Below, piece after piece: positions 28,259 to 36,627 of a stretch of DNA of 64,000 bases; within the stretch, counting starts at the first letter, position 1, and the number at the start of each line of letters is the position of its first letter. The DNA lies in NCBI GenBank assembly GCA_029257405.1, contig JARIBO010000008.1, positions 37,266 through 101,265 on the forward strand, given 5' to 3'. Position numbers and translations under genes: made by a program. The notes beneath the pieces are model-generated. The model did no database searches. It was given only the letters and a program-made list of their open reading frames with translations, and was not told the origin of the DNA. This stretch comes from Caryophanales bacterium. Lineage in GTDB: Bacteria > Bacillota > Bacilli > Bacillales > Amphibacillaceae.

Positions 28259-29056
28259 TTAATAATTTTTATCTGGAGTATTTGGTTGAAAATCTATCGA
28301 CCTTAAATAATCACATATAATTGAAATAAACTTTTTATTTGGTGGACGTTTAATTAACTTATTCGTATACCCATAATTTTTAATCGCACTTTTTATAATT
28401 GCTTTATTTCCCCATGCTAATTCAATCGCATGTCGCATTGATCTTTCCACGTTTGCAGCTTCTGTTTGATAAATTTCAGCAACTACTGGGTATAATTCTT
28501 TAGTAACTGCATTTAATAATTCAGCCTCGTTATAAACTTTTAATATAGCCGTTTTCAAATAATCAAATCCACTAAGACTTGGTTTTATACCTAAATCAAT
28601 TAATAATTTAGAAATAACTCCATACATTTTATCATAAATCACATCCTGCTTAGTTAATTCTGATTTTTCTGATAATTTATCTCGATGTAAATTAATAGAA
28701 GTTGAGATTAACTTATCTATATCAAATGGTTTATTAATAATATATTTAACATCATAATCAATTATCCTTTTTATTGTTTTATCATTTGTTAACGCTGTCA
28801 TTATTATAATAGTTAAATCTTTTAAATTAGAATTTTCTTTAATAAAATCTAAGACTTCAAAACCTGCAACTTTTGGTAATAAGATATCCATAATTAGTAT
28901 ATCAGGTTTTGATTCTTTTAAACCTTCTATACACAAGTAGCCATCACTAGAAACATGAGTGATTTCAATATTATCATGCTTCTTTAAGCTTTCTAGCAAT
29001 AGCTGTTGCAATTTATTACTATTATCAGCTATTGCTATTTTTAAATTATTATTCAT
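28259..29056 (-). CDS. spo0A: Spo0A-like sporulation response regulator
   Basis: Receiver domain (PDILIMDILLP, IIIMTA, INKPFD) plus Spo0A-type C-terminal domain (GFDYLKTAILKVYNEAELLNAVTKELYPVVAEIYQTEAANVERSMRHAIELAW...NYGYT); next to recN as in Bacillus. Confidence 0.93.
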   Translation of the reverse strand: MNNNLKIAIADNSNKLQQLLLESLKKHDNIEITHVSSDGYLCIEGLKESKPDILIMDILLPKVAGFEVLDFIKENSNLKDLTIIIMTALTNDKTIKRIIDYDVKYIINKPFDIDKLISTSINLHRDKLSEKSELTKQDVIYDKMYGVISKLLIDLGIKPSLSGFDYLKTAILKVYNEAELLNAVTKELYPVVAEIYQTEAANVERSMRHAIELAWGNKAIIKSAIKNYGYTNKLIKRPPNKKFISIICDYLRSIDFQPNTPDKNY

Positions 29057-29086: not shown

Positions 29087-30784
29087 TTATTTTTTCTTAT
29101 ATTTATTAGATAAATCAATTAAAGTTTTAGAATGCTCCATAACGGAGTCTGTCATTTTTGCTCCAGTCATCATTTTACTTAGCTCTATAACTTTATTATC
29201 AAGAGAGAGTTGGCTTACATTTGTTGTTGTTCTATTCTTTTTTTCTTCTTTTTTAATTAATAAATAATTATCAGACATAGCTGCTACTTGAGGTAAATGA
29301 GTAATACATAAGGTCTGGCTATTCATTGATACATCATACATTTTTTCAGCAATTGCTTGAGCTACTCTTCCACTCACACCTGTATCAATTTCATCAAAAA
29401 TAACTGTTGATATATTTTGGTGCTTAACAAAAATCTTTTTTAATATCAGCATAATTCGAGATAACTCTCCACCAGAAGCTACTTTCTCGAGTTGTTTTAA
29501 TGGTTCACCTAAATTTGTTGATAATAAGAAGTTTATTTTATCCAATCCATTTTCACTTATATCTTCTGAAGGATCAGAGGATAAAACGTTAAACTCCACA
29601 TCAAATTTAGCATTTTCTAAATATAAATCCTTTAATTCTAATTGCACTGTTTTAATTAATGTTTTCGCTATTTCTTTTCTTGAGCTTCTTAATTTTTTTC
29701 CAACTTCAATTACTTTAGTTGTATATTTGGCTATTTCATTCTCTAATTGTTCATTATGTATTTCTTTGTTTTCTAAAACTTCAATTTTTTGTTTAACTTC
29801 CTCGTAATATTCAATTATTTCGTTTACAGTCGTACCATATTTCTTTTTTAATCTAGCAATTTCATTTAACCGACTTTCCACTTCGTTTAATCTTGCTTCA
29901 TTAAATTGAATTTGTTCTTTATAGTCTCTAATTTGAAAACTTATTTCTTCTAAATTAAAGTAAAGACTAGTTAATTCTTCTGTTTTCTCTTTAATAAATG
30001 GGTCAAAGTCAGCTCCTTGTTGTAAAGCTGTTTGAGCAATATTTACCCATTCCAATCCTTTTTGATCACCATGAAGAGAATAATACGTTTCTTCTAAAGC
30101 GAGAAAGATTTTTTCAAAGTTAGCTAACTGAGTTTTTTCATCTTCTAATATCACGTCTTCATTTGGTTGAAGATCAGCTTCTTTTAATTCATTTGCTTGG
30201 AATAAATAAAGATCTAAACGTTGCGCTGCTTCTTGTTCATTTATAGCTAATTTATTATATTCTTGCTTATAATGCATAAGTTGTTTATATAAATCATGAT
30301 ATTGAGCTTTAATACTAGTAATTTCTTTTGAATTATATGCATCTAATAAATTGATATGAGCCTGTGAACTCATCAATTGATATGTGTCGTGTTGACTATG
30401 AATATCAACTAAATTATTTCCAAATTCTCTTAAAATCGTTAAGGTAACCAATTTTCCATTAATTCGACAGATTGATTTTCCTTTATCAGTAACAATTCGC
30501 TCTAAAACAACCATATTATCTGTTAAATCGATTCCATATTTATCTGCTAACAAAAAAAGATTAGACATATCATCAATAACAAATAAACCATTTAATTCTA
30601 GTTTACTCGCTCCATGTCTAATGTAATCGACTGACCCGCGACCACCTGATAAAAGATGAACTGCATCAATAATAATTGACTTACCAGCACCGGTTTCACC
30701 TGTTAAAACAGTTAATCCATTTTGAAAATTGACTGACAAATCTTCTATAATTGCAAAGTTTTTAATTGATAATTCGGTTAACAT
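29087..30784 (-). CDS. recN: DNA repair protein RecN
   Basis: LTGETGAGKSIIIDAV; IFDEIDTGVSGRVAQAIAEKM. Confidence 0.97.
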   Translation of the reverse strand: MLTELSIKNFAIIEDLSVNFQNGLTVLTGETGAGKSIIIDAVHLLSGGRGSVDYIRHGASKLELNGLFVIDDMSNLFLLADKYGIDLTDNMVVLERIVTDKGKSICRINGKLVTLTILREFGNNLVDIHSQHDTYQLMSSQAHINLLDAYNSKEITSIKAQYHDLYKQLMHYKQEYNKLAINEQEAAQRLDLYLFQANELKEADLQPNEDVILEDEKTQLANFEKIFLALEETYYSLHGDQKGLEWVNIAQTALQQGADFDPFIKEKTEELTSLYFNLEEISFQIRDYKEQIQFNEARLNEVESRLNEIARLKKKYGTTVNEIIEYYEEVKQKIEVLENKEIHNEQLENEIAKYTTKVIEVGKKLRSSRKEIAKTLIKTVQLELKDLYLENAKFDVEFNVLSSDPSEDISENGLDKINFLLSTNLGEPLKQLEKVASGGELSRIMLILKKIFVKHQNISTVIFDEIDTGVSGRVAQAIAEKMYDVSMNSQTLCITHLPQVAAMSDNYLLIKKEEKKNRTTTNVSQLSLDNKVIELSKMMTGAKMTDSVMEHSKTLIDLSNKYKKK

Positions 30785-30804: not shown

Positions 30805-31254
30805 TTATAGCATACTAATAAAACGTTCTTTAATTTCTACAGCATCGTCTTCAGTTCGACAAATTAGTAAACATGTGTCGTCTCCACAAATTGTTCCCAT
30901 AATTTCATTCCACTCTAAGTTATCTATTAGTGCTCCTACAGCATGAGCGTTTCCAGGTAATGTTTTTAAAACAATAAATAAAGAGGTATGATCAATTTTT
31001 ACAAATGCATCCATAATTAAGCGTTTTAATTTCTCATGTGGATTAAACTTTTGATCGGCTGGTAGGCTATACTTATAATTTCCAGTATTAGAAGGAACTT
31101 TAACTAGGTGCAATTCTTTAATATCACGTGAAACAGTTGCTTGTGTTACGTCAAAATCAGATCTTTTTAATTGATCGACTAACTCATCTTGAGTGTCAAT
31201 TTCTTTTTCAGTAATTAATTCTCTGATTTTAATATGTCGTTGTAATTTACTCAC
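30805..31254 (-). CDS. argR: arginine repressor ArgR/AhrC
   Basis: [26 protein letters not shown]. Confidence 0.96.
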
Positions 31255-31267
31255 ATATAAAACTCCT

Positions 31268-32077
31268 TTAATTTTTCTTCGTTAAATTAGCATGTGCATT
31301 TGCAACAATCTCTTGAACATTTAATTCATTTTTTTGCGAATCTTTGCCTAAAGATAAATGCGCTAAAAATTCAATGTTTCCTGCACCGCCAGTGATTGGA
31401 GAATACGTAATTTCATGGATAGTATAACCATTTTCTAAAATAAAGTTAGTAACTCGAGTCAATACTTTTTCATGTATTTTCTTATCTCTAATAATACCTT
31501 TTTTTCCTACTTCTTCTTTTCGCGCTTCAAACTGAGGTTTTATTAATGTTACAATATCACTGCCAGATTTTAATATTTCTTTTAGTACTGGTAAAATAAG
31601 TGATAATGATATAAAAGATACATCAATCATAGCAAACTCAGGTAACCCTTTAGAAAACACTTCAGGTTTTACATACCTAAAATTAGTTTTTTCCATAACT
31701 ATTACGCGTTCATCACTACGAATTTTCCAATCTAATTGATTATAACCCACATCAATTGCATAAATTAACTGAGCTCCATTTTGTAAGGCACAATCTGAAA
31801 AACCTCCTGTAGACGCACCTATATCTACCAAGACTTTATCTAATACTGAAATATCAAACTCTTTTAATGCTTTTTCTAATTTTAAACCTCCTCTACTTAC
31901 ATAAGGTAATTTTCCCTTTACATATAATGGTATATCATAATCATATTTAGTTCCAGCTTTATCCAATTGTATATTATCAGAATATACTTGACCTGCCATA
32001 ATTAATCTTTTTGCTTTTTCTCTCGTATCAATTAATTTTCTTTCAACTAATAAAACATCTAATCTCTCTTTAGCCAT
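31268..32077 (-). CDS. tlyA: TlyA family 23S/16S rRNA (cytidine-2'-O)-methyltransferase (YqxC)
   Basis: S4 domain plus [20 protein letters not shown] FtsJ-like SAM motif. Confidence 0.93.
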
Positions 32078-32093
32078 ATAATCTATCCTTATC

Positions 32094-32660
32094 TTAAAAT
32101 ACTTTTATTTTTAATTTAGATTCTAAAATATAAATGAACTTCCCAGCAATAAGAATAATCTGGGTCGAAGCATTTATAGCTAAATATTTTCCTATTGCTT
32201 TTCCACCAACTGTTAAAGCTGCTATTACACTTGTTAAAAATACAGATAGTATAATCGGAAAAATCGAATCTTCTTTTAACTCAGTTATATTTGTTATTTC
32301 TATTATTACTATCGTCAGTGCACTACCACTAACAATACCTGAGATATCACCTATAACATCATTACAAAAACTTGCAAACTTATCTGCATTTTTTGTAATT
32401 AAAACAGCTTCTTTTGCACCTTTTACTTTTTCTGCAGCCATCGCATTAAATGGTACTTCATCTGCTGCAGTTGAAGCGATTCCTAACATATCAAATAAAA
32501 TACCGACAATGACAATAATCAAAACAATTAATAATCCTAATATCCAAGATACTTTACTGAGTATTGATGATGAGACAATTGAAAAAATAGCCGCTAACAC
32601 AAATGTGATAACCGCTATGTATATTGAAAATTTAATTGAGCCTTTAAGTTTAGTATTCAT
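32094..32660 (-). CDS. oapA: DUF21-like multi-TM protein, candidate OLE-associated protein OapA
   Basis: 188 aa, about 4 hydrophobic segments, central GIASTAADEVPFNAMAAEKVKGAKEAVLITKNADKFASFCNDVIGDISGIVSGSA; starts 33 nt after the candidate OLE RNA. Confidence 0.72.
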   Translation of the reverse strand: MNTKLKGSIKFSIYIAVITFVLAAIFSIVSSSILSKVSWILGLLIVLIIVIVGILFDMLGIASTAADEVPFNAMAAEKVKGAKEAVLITKNADKFASFCNDVIGDISGIVSGSALTIVIIEITNITELKEDSIFPIILSVFLTSVIAALTVGGKAIGKYLAINASTQIILIAGKFIYILESKLKIKVF

Positions 32661-32693
32661 TATAAAACTCCAATTTTTTATCTTATTAAAAGC

Positions 32694-33285
32694 AATGAAA
32701 TGGTCATCCCAGAAGTTAAGACTACGGCTTAGGTCCAGCAGGTTTTCCCAGATAAGTACCTCATGTCGCCATCGAGGCAGTTCCCTTTTAAACTTATCTT
32801 AACGATGTCGCCATCAATTAGACTGGATTACCACTTAGTCCGTACTAGAATCCCTCTGCGATGTCATAAAATGAACAGTCTAGGAGATTTCCTCAGCAAA
32901 CTTTAGCTACTCCCTAGCCACTTTTGCAACACTAATTTCATAAAGATCAATCCCTCTTTAGTGGCCACTAAAAAAGAATCAATAAACTCTAATCCCTTTA
33001 GTGTCACTCAAGGCAGGCTACGCTGTGAATGAATTAATGTCATTCTACAGGTTCATACCCCATTCCATAGATATTTTTAATCTACGAGAGATGGGCCTCC
33101 GCGATCACTGGGTCAAACGCCCACATGCCATTGTGGATCGCCCAATAATCTTAACTCCCAGCATAAGCCCAAGGCTGGGCGCCTCAGGCAAACACAAGGA
33201 ACTTCATCGATATGCCCTTTGGCAGATTTTTAGGCCTGCCTTCAGAAGTAAAGGTTTGACTAGAATACTGCACCATTTCATTATT
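32694..33285 (-). ncRNA. ole: candidate OLE (Ornate Large Extremophilic) RNA
   Basis: About 590 nt, higher GC than flanks, no convincing ORF; closing stem AATGAAATGG (33273-33282) / CCATTTCATT (32694-32703); many internal helices and two GCGA GNRA-loop hairpins; lies between ispA and oapA-like/tlyA/argR/recN. Confidence 0.82.
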
Positions 33286-33291
33286 ATCTTT

Positions 33292-33319
33292 ATTATACCA
33301 TATATTTTAAAAAATAAGA
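33292..33319 (-). promoter_or_regulatory. candidate promoter of the OLE RNA (extended -10 TGgTATAAT, weak -35 TTCTTA, 17-nt spacer)
   Basis: Minus strand reads TTCTTA-ttttttaaaatatatgg-TATAAT, about 7 nt upstream of the inferred 5' stem. Confidence 0.6.
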
Positions 33320-33325
33320 ATATAA

Positions 33326-34207
33326 TTAATGATCTCGATTTCCAAAATACGCCATTAATTTAATTAACATATCTTTTTTAGCAGTTGTTTTATCAAGTTC
33401 TGCTTTTGCTTTTTCAATATAAATTTCTTTTTGTTTTATTGCTCCCTTTAAACCGAGCAAATTAGGAAACGTGCTTTTTTGATTTGATTCATCACTTCCA
33501 ACAGGTTTTCCAAGTTTAGATTCATCTCCTGTTACGTCTAAAATATCATCTTGAATTTGGAATATTAAACCTAAATAATAAGCAAAGTTTTTTAAATGAT
33601 CCATCTCTTCTTTTGGTGCGTTCGCTAAGTATGCACCTGTCATAATTGCAAACTTAATCAACTCACCTGTTTTATATTCATGGATTTGTTCTAACTTTTC
33701 TAAACTAACTTTTTCTTTTTCAGCTTGCATATCGTATATTTGTCCGCCGACCATACCTGTAGGACCACTACATTTTGCAAGTAATTTAACTATACTTACT
33801 TTTTCTTCGTCTGATAGTAAATCGTCATCAGTAATGATTTCAAAACTATAAGTAAGTAATGCATCTCCTGCTAAAATTGCAGTTGCTTCGTCGAATTTTT
33901 TATGGTTAGTTTCTTTACCACGTCTAAAATCATCATCGTCCATAGCAGGTAAATCATCATGAATAAGTGAGTATGTATGAATCATTTCAAGTGCAGAAAT
34001 AGATGACATTACTTTTTGATTGTGTGCTTTGTATGCTTCAAAGCTTAACATAAGTAATACTGGTCTTAACCTTTTACCACCTGCCATGAGTGAATAGAGC
34101 ATCGAATCTTTTAATTCTTTTGGAGCATTTAATTTTTCTATGTTTATTTGCAGTTCTTTTTCGACTATTAATTTTTTTTCAATTAGATACTGGTCTAAAT
34201 TTTTCAC
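33326..34207 (-). CDS. ispA: polyprenyl (farnesyl/geranyl) diphosphate synthase
   Basis: SLIHDDLPAMDDDDFRRG and FQIQDDILDVTGD DDxxD motifs. Confidence 0.95.
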   Translation of the reverse strand: MKNLDQYLIEKKLIVEKELQINIEKLNAPKELKDSMLYSLMAGGKRLRPVLLMLSFEAYKAHNQKVMSSISALEMIHTYSLIHDDLPAMDDDDFRRGKETNHKKFDEATAILAGDALLTYSFEIITDDDLLSDEEKVSIVKLLAKCSGPTGMVGGQIYDMQAEKEKVSLEKLEQIHEYKTGELIKFAIMTGAYLANAPKEEMDHLKNFAYYLGLIFQIQDDILDVTGDESKLGKPVGSDESNQKSTFPNLLGLKGAIKQKEIYIEKAKAELDKTTAKKDMLIKLMAYFGNRDH

Positions 34208-34213
34208 CTTTTA

Positions 34214-34471
34214 CTATTCCTCCTGCAAATCAAATAATGTGGGTTGATTATTTTCATCTAATATTTCAGTCATTTTCTTTTCGGCGTTTGATAAAACTTT
34301 ATCACATATTTTTGATAATTCCATACCTTTTTCATAATACTTAATTGCTTTTTCAATAGGTACATCTGGTTCTTCAAGTTTTTTTACAATACTATCTAAT
34401 TGTTCTAAAGCTTCTTCAAAAGATAATTCTTTATTTTCCAATTTTTTTGCCCCTCTTTTGAGTAATTTCAC
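34214..34471 (-). CDS. xseB: exodeoxyribonuclease VII small subunit
   Basis: LSFEEALEQLDSIVKKLEEPDVPIEKAIKYYEKGM. Confidence 0.94.
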   Translation of the reverse strand: MKLLKRGAKKLENKELSFEEALEQLDSIVKKLEEPDVPIEKAIKYYEKGMELSKICDKVLSNAEKKMTEILDENNQPTLFDLQEE

Positions 34472-35786
34472 ATGATAAGATACCGTCTTTTAATTGAATG
34501 TCTATTTCATCGTTTACTTCAACTTCTTCAACTGATTTAATGAGGCTTTTATCCTCTGATTTATAAGCTAAAGAGAAACCTCTACTCATCGTAGTTAATG
34601 GATTTAATAAAATTAATTTATCAACTGCCGACGTAAAGTTATTTTCATGGTAAGTATAAATACGCTCTAAATTTCGTTTGCTGGATTCGTTTAATCTATT
34701 TAAATTTTCTTTTGCTTCAATTAATTTCTTTTCAGGATGTAAAAACTTTAAATTTTGTTTTACTATTGAAAACTCATTTTGTTTATTTTTTATAAGTGTT
34801 TTAAATGTGTTTTTAAAGTTATCAGTTGTTTGATCTAATTGTTGTTCTTTATTTAAAAATAATTGCTTTGGGTTTCTAAATATATACGATTGTTTTAAAT
34901 CATCTAATTTATTTATATTTATATTTAATAATTGAGAAACTGACCTTAACAATCTCTCTTTATATTGATTATTATTCGAAATAAGCTCGATTAATGAAGG
35001 TACTGCTAATTCAGCTGCTCCTGTTGGTGTTGGCGCTCTTAAATCTGATATATAATCACTAATTGTAATATCAGTCTCATGGCCAATTCCTGAAATAATA
35101 GGGATTTTTGATTTATAGATTGCTTCAGCAACAGCAATATCATTAAATGCCCATAAATCTTCTATTGATCCACCACCACGTCCTAATATAACAGAGTCGA
35201 ATTCCCCTAATTTGTTCGCTCGATTTATTGATTCAACAATCGAATCAATTGCTAAATCACCCTGGACTAGTGTAGGAATAATCGTCGTTTTGACAATCGG
35301 ATAACGTCTTTTAATCGTAATTAAAATATCTCTTACTGCTGCCCCTGTAGGTGATGTGATTATAGCTATATGACTTGGATATTTAGGTATTGGTTTTTTG
35401 TTTTCTTCATTAAAATAACCTGCTTTATTTAATTTTTCTTTTAATTGTTCAAAAGCTAAATAGAGAGCCCCAACACCATCGGGCTCCATACTTCTAATAT
35501 ATAATTGATATTGTCCGTGTGCTTCATATACACCTATATTACCTGTGATTAAGACTTCCATACCATTCTCAGGAGTGAATTTTAAATTACGATTATTACC
35601 AGCAAACATAACAGCTTTAATTTGAGATTGATTATCTTTTATCGTTAAATACATATGCCCACGACTATGATGGTTAAAGTTAGATATCTCACCTTTAATA
35701 TATACAGTCTGTAAATGTGGATCAATTTCAATTTTACGTTTAATATACTTTGTTAAGGCAGAAACGGATAAATATTTATTTTCCAA
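34431..35786 (-). CDS. xseA: exodeoxyribonuclease VII large subunit
   Basis: KGEISNFNHHSRGHMYLTIKD; SGIGHETDITISDYISDLRAPTPTGAAE. Confidence 0.96.
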   Translation of the reverse strand: MENKYLSVSALTKYIKRKIEIDPHLQTVYIKGEISNFNHHSRGHMYLTIKDNQSQIKAVMFAGNNRNLKFTPENGMEVLITGNIGVYEAHGQYQLYIRSMEPDGVGALYLAFEQLKEKLNKAGYFNEENKKPIPKYPSHIAIITSPTGAAVRDILITIKRRYPIVKTTIIPTLVQGDLAIDSIVESINRANKLGEFDSVILGRGGGSIEDLWAFNDIAVAEAIYKSKIPIISGIGHETDITISDYISDLRAPTPTGAAELAVPSLIELISNNNQYKERLLRSVSQLLNININKLDDLKQSYIFRNPKQLFLNKEQQLDQTTDNFKNTFKTLIKNKQNEFSIVKQNLKFLHPEKKLIEAKENLNRLNESSKRNLERIYTYHENNFTSAVDKLILLNPLTTMSRGFSLAYKSEDKSLIKSVEEVEVNDEIDIQLKDGILSCEITQKRGKKIGK

Positions 35787-36627
35787 TTTGCTTCGCCGCT
35801 TTAATCGTGTTTTTTAGTAACATAGTTATTGTCATTGGACCTACACCTTTAGGTACAGGTGTAATATAAGAAGCTACTTCTTTTACTGATTCAAAGTCAA
35901 CATCTCCAGTTAGTTTACCTTCTTTTGTACGATTTACTCCAACATCAATAACAACAGCGTCTTTTTTAACATGTTCTGCTTTAATTACATGTTCTTTACC
36001 AATAGCAACGACTAAAATATCAGCGTCCAGTGTATGTTTACTTAAATCTTTTGTTTTTGAATGACAATAAGTTACTGTAGCACTTTCATTTAATAATAGT
36101 TGTCCGACAGGTTTTCCTACAATATTACTTCTACCTATAACAACCGCATGTTTTCCAGTAATCTCTATGTCTTTAGACTTTAACATCGTAATAATTCCAT
36201 AAGGTGTACATGATAAAAATGTATCATTACCTAAAATCATATTTCCTACGTTAACTGGGTGGAAACCATCAACATCTTTTTTAGGACTAATTGCTTCTAT
36301 AATTTTTTGTTCATTTATTTGTTTTGGTAAAGGTAATTGAACAAGAATTCCGTGAACATTTATATTATTATTTAATTCATTTACCTTCTCTAATAAATAT
36401 GTTTCAGAAGTATCTTCAGGTAAATTTATTATTTCTGAACTTATTCCTATTTCTGCGGATGCCTTTTTCTTACCTTTTACGTAAGAATGTGATGCTGGGT
36501 CATCACCTACAATTATAACAGTTAAATGTGGATTAATATTTTGTTCATTTAATACTTTAACTTCCTTTTTTAATTCTGTTCGAATATCTTTAGCTAGTTC
36601 TGTTCCGCTAATTACCTCTGCTGACAT
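35776..36627 (-). CDS. folD: bifunctional methylenetetrahydrofolate dehydrogenase/cyclohydrolase
   Basis: SHSYVKGKKKASAEIGI; VIGRSNIVGKPVGQLL; TPVPKGVGPMTI. Confidence 0.97.
   Translation of the reverse strand: MSAEVISGTELAKDIRTELKKEVKVLNEQNINPHLTVIIVGDDPASHSYVKGKKKASAEIGISSEIINLPEDTSETYLLEKVNELNNNINVHGILVQLPLPKQINEQKIIEAISPKKDVDGFHPVNVGNMILGNDTFLSCTPYGIITMLKSKDIEITGKHAVVIGRSNIVGKPVGQLLLNESATVTYCHSKTKDLSKHTLDADILVVAIGKEHVIKAEHVKKDAVVIDVGVNRTKEGKLTGDVDFESVKEVASYITPVPKGVGPMTITMLLKNTIKAAKQIGK

Follow-up and report, generated by a model that had tools for sequence, protein, structure and literature searches.

The gene next to the OLE RNA in the 64,000-nucleotide stretch of Caryophanales bacterium DNA that we analysed (hereafter the window) is, judged by its sequence and its setting, oapA, the gene for OLE-associated protein A. 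Among structured bacterial RNAs that still await a biochemical function, OLE is one of the largest. We consider it very probable that the four-helix product of this oapA gene binds the OLE RNA made from the same operon and serves as its membrane anchor, and that OapB and OapC, both encoded elsewhere in the genome, complete the ribonucleoprotein particle (RNP). The positions of the features discussed below are collected in Table 1.

Table 1. Features of the ole-oapA region, in window coordinates
Feature	Position	Strand	Description
folD	35776-36627	-	operon gene
xseA	34431-35786	-	operon gene
xseB	34214-34471	-	operon gene
ispA	33326-34207	-	ispA-like polyprenyl synthase, upstream operon gene
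ole	32684-33292	-	noncoding RNA OLE, full-length match to RF01071 with 499.1 bits
oapA	32094-32660	-	OLE-associated protein A (188 aa), a membrane protein with several TM segments; DxxxD motif D101-D105
tlyA	31268-32077	-	rRNA methyltransferase (S4 + FtsJ), next gene after oapA
argR/ahrC	30805-31254	-	arginine repressor
recN	29087-30784	-	downstream cluster gene
spo0A	28259-29056	-	downstream sporulation regulator

The protein encoded next to OLE is OapA

A preliminary description of this DNA had proposed that the gene encodes a multi-TM protein of the OapA type, and both parts of this proposal were borne out. The open reading frame occupies exactly the interval given in Table 1, begins with ATG and has a ribosome-binding site (GGAG) approximately 10 nt before this start. 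An AlphaFold2 model of its product (mean pLDDT 86, pTM 0.75) contains long membrane-type helices at residues 3-34, 39-65, 92-126 and 134-163, as well as shorter ones, matching the approximately four transmembrane helices expected of OapA. The window protein was 54-73% identical to 40 OapA proteins of named Bacillota genomes, Halalkalibacter species included, with its nearest named relative (73%) in a Pseudogracilibacillus metagenome-assembled genome. The DxxxD motif, which according to published work characterizes OapA and is lacking in CNNM domains (PMC11332333), is present as DVIGD, and its two aspartates were invariant in the window protein and in alignments of 27 family sequences and of 41 sequences, the latter including 40 from named genomes. 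These features, together with the operon position and the OLE co-occurrence described below, support the identification. The most strongly conserved core of OapA is FCNDVIGDISGIVSG, which contains the DxxxD motif, along with TVGGKA; the polar block TAADEVPFNAMAAEKVKGAKEA, which had been singled out as conserved, was so only in part and is not the defining motif. Searching solved structures by sequence with an OapA profile gave no match, and a search of NCBIfam turned up nothing meaningful.

We considered whether the window protein is instead an ordinary CNNM/CorB-type Mg2+ transporter that lies beside OLE incidentally, as might be argued from its weak match to Pfam PF01595 (17.1 bits), from matches to the same family at E 0.01 or better in 26 of the 41 OapA sequences, and from its fold, for which the best four PDB matches were all to the archaeal CNNM protein MtCorB (probability 0.89-1.00, with weak E-values of 0.08-0.67 and TM-scores of 0.40-0.48). 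However, the Pfam score lies below the cut-off of 28.4, Pfam detected no CBS or CorC domains in the window protein, which ends at 188 aa, and the OapA-specific DxxxD motif is present; on these grounds we rejected an identity as an ordinary CNNM transporter. The exceptionless co-occurrence with OLE in 100 genomes, and its persistence in genomes where the genes are unlinked, also argues against an incidental neighbor, and this reading appears to us highly improbable. The OapA identified here resembles the MpfA/CorB/CNNM proteins remotely, in sequence and perhaps in the fold of the membrane domain, but differs from them in its domain content, its motif, its Pfam score and an anticorrelated distribution. 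The relationship between OapA and CNNM/DUF21 is thus distant, in line with the published view of OapA as a distant CNNM relative. The DUF21 label of the preliminary description therefore stands as a remote sequence resemblance and fails as a family assignment under the Pfam cut-off. Its warning that a transporter annotation might hide the OLE link was apt insofar as the distant likeness means that such an annotation could arise and mask the link, although the window sequence itself does not pass Pfam's own cut-off.

A full-length OLE RNA lies directly upstream of oapA

The candidate OLE RNA reported upstream of the gene proved to be a full-length match to Rfam RF01071 (499.1 bits, E 2e-143), covering the whole model at positions 1-616 and far exceeding the gathering score of 50 bits; the published threshold for full-length OLE is 390 bits, set with that paper's own model (PMC11332333). 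This is the single OLE copy in the window's genome. Aligned with relatives, this OLE has kept its P12.2/P13 GGCGAC loops and its J4a/5 stretch intact, where the naming of substructures is our own, and part of an OLE RNA dimer has been resolved by cryo-EM (PMC12286853). The Rfam result confirms the OLE assignment; the antisense matches of a custom OLE profile that was also used probably arose from mis-oriented seed rows, and only the stronger sense matches were counted.

On the same strand, the start codon of oapA follows the end of the Rfam model after 23 nt and the last paired base after about 44 nt; these distances replace the 33 nt given previously. No terminator was found between ole and oapA in a scan of this region, and a promoter scan around the two genes performed no better than it did on shuffled sequence.

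Operon structure and co-occurrence of OLE and OapA

The order of genes in the window, folD-xseA-xseB-ispA-ole-oapA-tlyA-argR-recN, is the standard one. In pull-downs, the product of argR/ahrC reportedly interacts with OLE RNA (PMC10898510). When loci of named genomes were fetched with the OapA profile, OLE lay immediately upstream of oapA in 80 of 80, so that every one of the best homologues has OLE as its neighbor; homologues confined to genomes without OLE had been named in advance as telling against the proposal. At 79 of these loci, ispA preceded and tlyA followed the pair, with or without dxs, in the common order (folD-)xseA-xseB-ispA-ole-oapA-(dxs-)tlyA-(argR/recN); the remaining locus (L110) is truncated where its contig begins. 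The dxs gene was found between oapA and tlyA at 65 of the 80 loci and was absent from this place in 15, as it is in the window (32077-32094). No convincing dxs was found elsewhere in the window's genome, and a gene for HMG-CoA synthase was present, which suggests use of the mevalonate route. The operon has thus lost dxs in a lineage with a mevalonate-pathway gene, and this loss has no bearing on the identity of OapA.

A sample of 100 family genomes showed OLE together with OapA in 79 and neither of them in 21, with no exception. In a sample of 201 genomes of the class, 54 had both; full OLE was found in 55, and the one of these without OapA (G178) has its OLE 230 bases in from the beginning of a contig, where the downstream gene was probably cut off. 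A further genome in this sample (G208) retained only a remnant of OLE and had no OapA. Seven genomes from four other families (G111, G119, G133, G237, G248, G269 and G279) contained both ole and oapA far apart or on different contigs, and the retention of both genes while unlinked shows that the tie between them is more than linkage. Both genes were gone from a congener (G064, contig C190, locus L151), where ispA and tlyA are about 75 nt apart, and from genome G001, where they are about 44 nt apart.

The remnant in G208 (C1:9598-9671, minus strand; L150) sits between ispA and dxs and consists of a 5' GCAGTATTCTAGT element joined to a GAGGAAA...CTAGACTGTT element, with the P3-P9 part missing and the large 5' domain gone. 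At locus L129 (G061:C1:2174500-2179500), in a single-contig genome, a frameshift splits oapA beside an intact OLE of 508 bits; this frameshift may reflect either an error in sequencing or incipient decay.

Partner proteins and the proposed RNP

The preliminary description had recommended a search of the genome for OapB and OapC, and both were found to be encoded elsewhere in the window's genome. It had, however, interchanged the two partners by describing OapB as L7Ae-like: OapB is a KOW protein, and the L7Ae-like partner is OapC, the k-turn-binding protein YbxF (PMC9723947). The OapB gene lies immediately ahead of infA, and its product, a KOW protein of 103 aa, matched the OLE-associated protein B of a published crystal structure (PDB 7k9b) with 119.8 bits and E 4e-34; the lack of an OapB homologue, which would have weakened the proposal, was therefore not observed. 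The OapC/YbxF gene lies between rpoC and rpsL. Another gene of the L7Ae family follows nusA; it is probably ylxQ, a paralogue of ybxF.

These findings are consistent with a model drawn from the OLE RNP (bTOR complex) of Halalkalibacterium halodurans. OLE RNA would be transcribed just upstream of oapA, in the same operon; OapA, probably as a dimer in the membrane, would bind this RNA and keep the RNP at the membrane; and OapB and OapC/YbxF, made from their own loci elsewhere, would complete the particle as RNA-binding partners. Cooperative binding of OLE RNA by OapA and localization of the RNA to the membrane have been published for H. halodurans only (PMC12265935), and dimerization and the stress phenotypes are likewise known from that species (PMC12265935, PMC9723947, PMC10898510), in which the RNP supports the growth of cells facing cold, alcohol, Mg2+ or carbon-source stress (PMC12265935, PMC9723947, PMC10898510). 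By analogy, the completed RNP of the window's genome may support growth under stress. The two systems are alike in the position of oapA directly after ole, in the DxxxD motif, in the four long helices and in having OapB and OapC in the genome. They differ in that the window cluster and apparently the whole genome lack dxs, with the HMG-CoA synthase of the mevalonate pathway instead. The window locus is a genuine, if ordinary, further case of an RNA-protein machine already known for its part in stress responses, and it changes nothing about the current view of OLE, while adding a small-genome host that has OapA, OapB and OapC and lacks MpfA.

MpfA and a possible role in Mg2+ export

No MpfA/CNNM protein scored above the cut-off in the window's genome, although the same search returned such a protein for 12 of the 14 control genomes. 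A second CNNM match in the genome (C8, 13.6 bits) was discarded, as it falls in a 662-aa open reading frame resembling a TRAP-type transporter. It has been proposed that OapA is an RNA-controlled Mg2+ exporter (PMC11332333); OLE would then replace the CBS/CorC regulation of MpfA, and the window's genome, lacking MpfA, would rely on this exporter. In agreement with such a role, and in the same direction as the published anticorrelation, family genomes with OLE had a mean of 1.47 CNNM matches versus 2.38 in those without it (Mann-Whitney p 2e-5, ignoring relatedness), where OapA itself may account for some weak matches in the genomes with OLE. Genomes G000 and G026 lack MpfA, and the congener that lost ole and oapA has it. 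However, most family genomes with OLE, including congeners G083 and G092, have kept MpfA, and its complete absence (8 of 79 OLE genomes versus 0 of 21 without OLE) was not significantly enriched (Fisher p 0.2). We therefore regard the exporter reading as rather unlikely for the window protein, and favor its role as the membrane anchor of the OLE RNP. The congener G064 carries MpfA and has lost ole and oapA together; set beside the window's genome, it offers a natural comparison by which to weigh the proposed common Mg2+ role of OLE-OapA and MpfA.

A second OapA in Virgibacillus-like genomes

The most unusual by-product of this analysis was a diverged OapA-like gene, here termed OapA2, that lacks an OLE in the several kb around it. 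Its product is 46% identical to OapA and keeps the DxxxD motif, and the gene lies beside one for a HelD/UvrD-type helicase. Elsewhere in the family and class samples, the only trace of it was a partial match in G072. We put forward tentatively the possibility that OapA-type proteins can work apart from an OLE copy of their own: OapA2 may pair with OapA in mixed dimers, offer the single OLE RNA a second mode of binding, or function with no RNA at all. OapA2 was intact in two Virgibacillus-like species (L125:3037-3639, minus strand, and L126:2924-3520, plus strand; G018 C205 and G097 C1), and in two other genomes (G059 and G080) it has decayed, being interrupted by stop codons.
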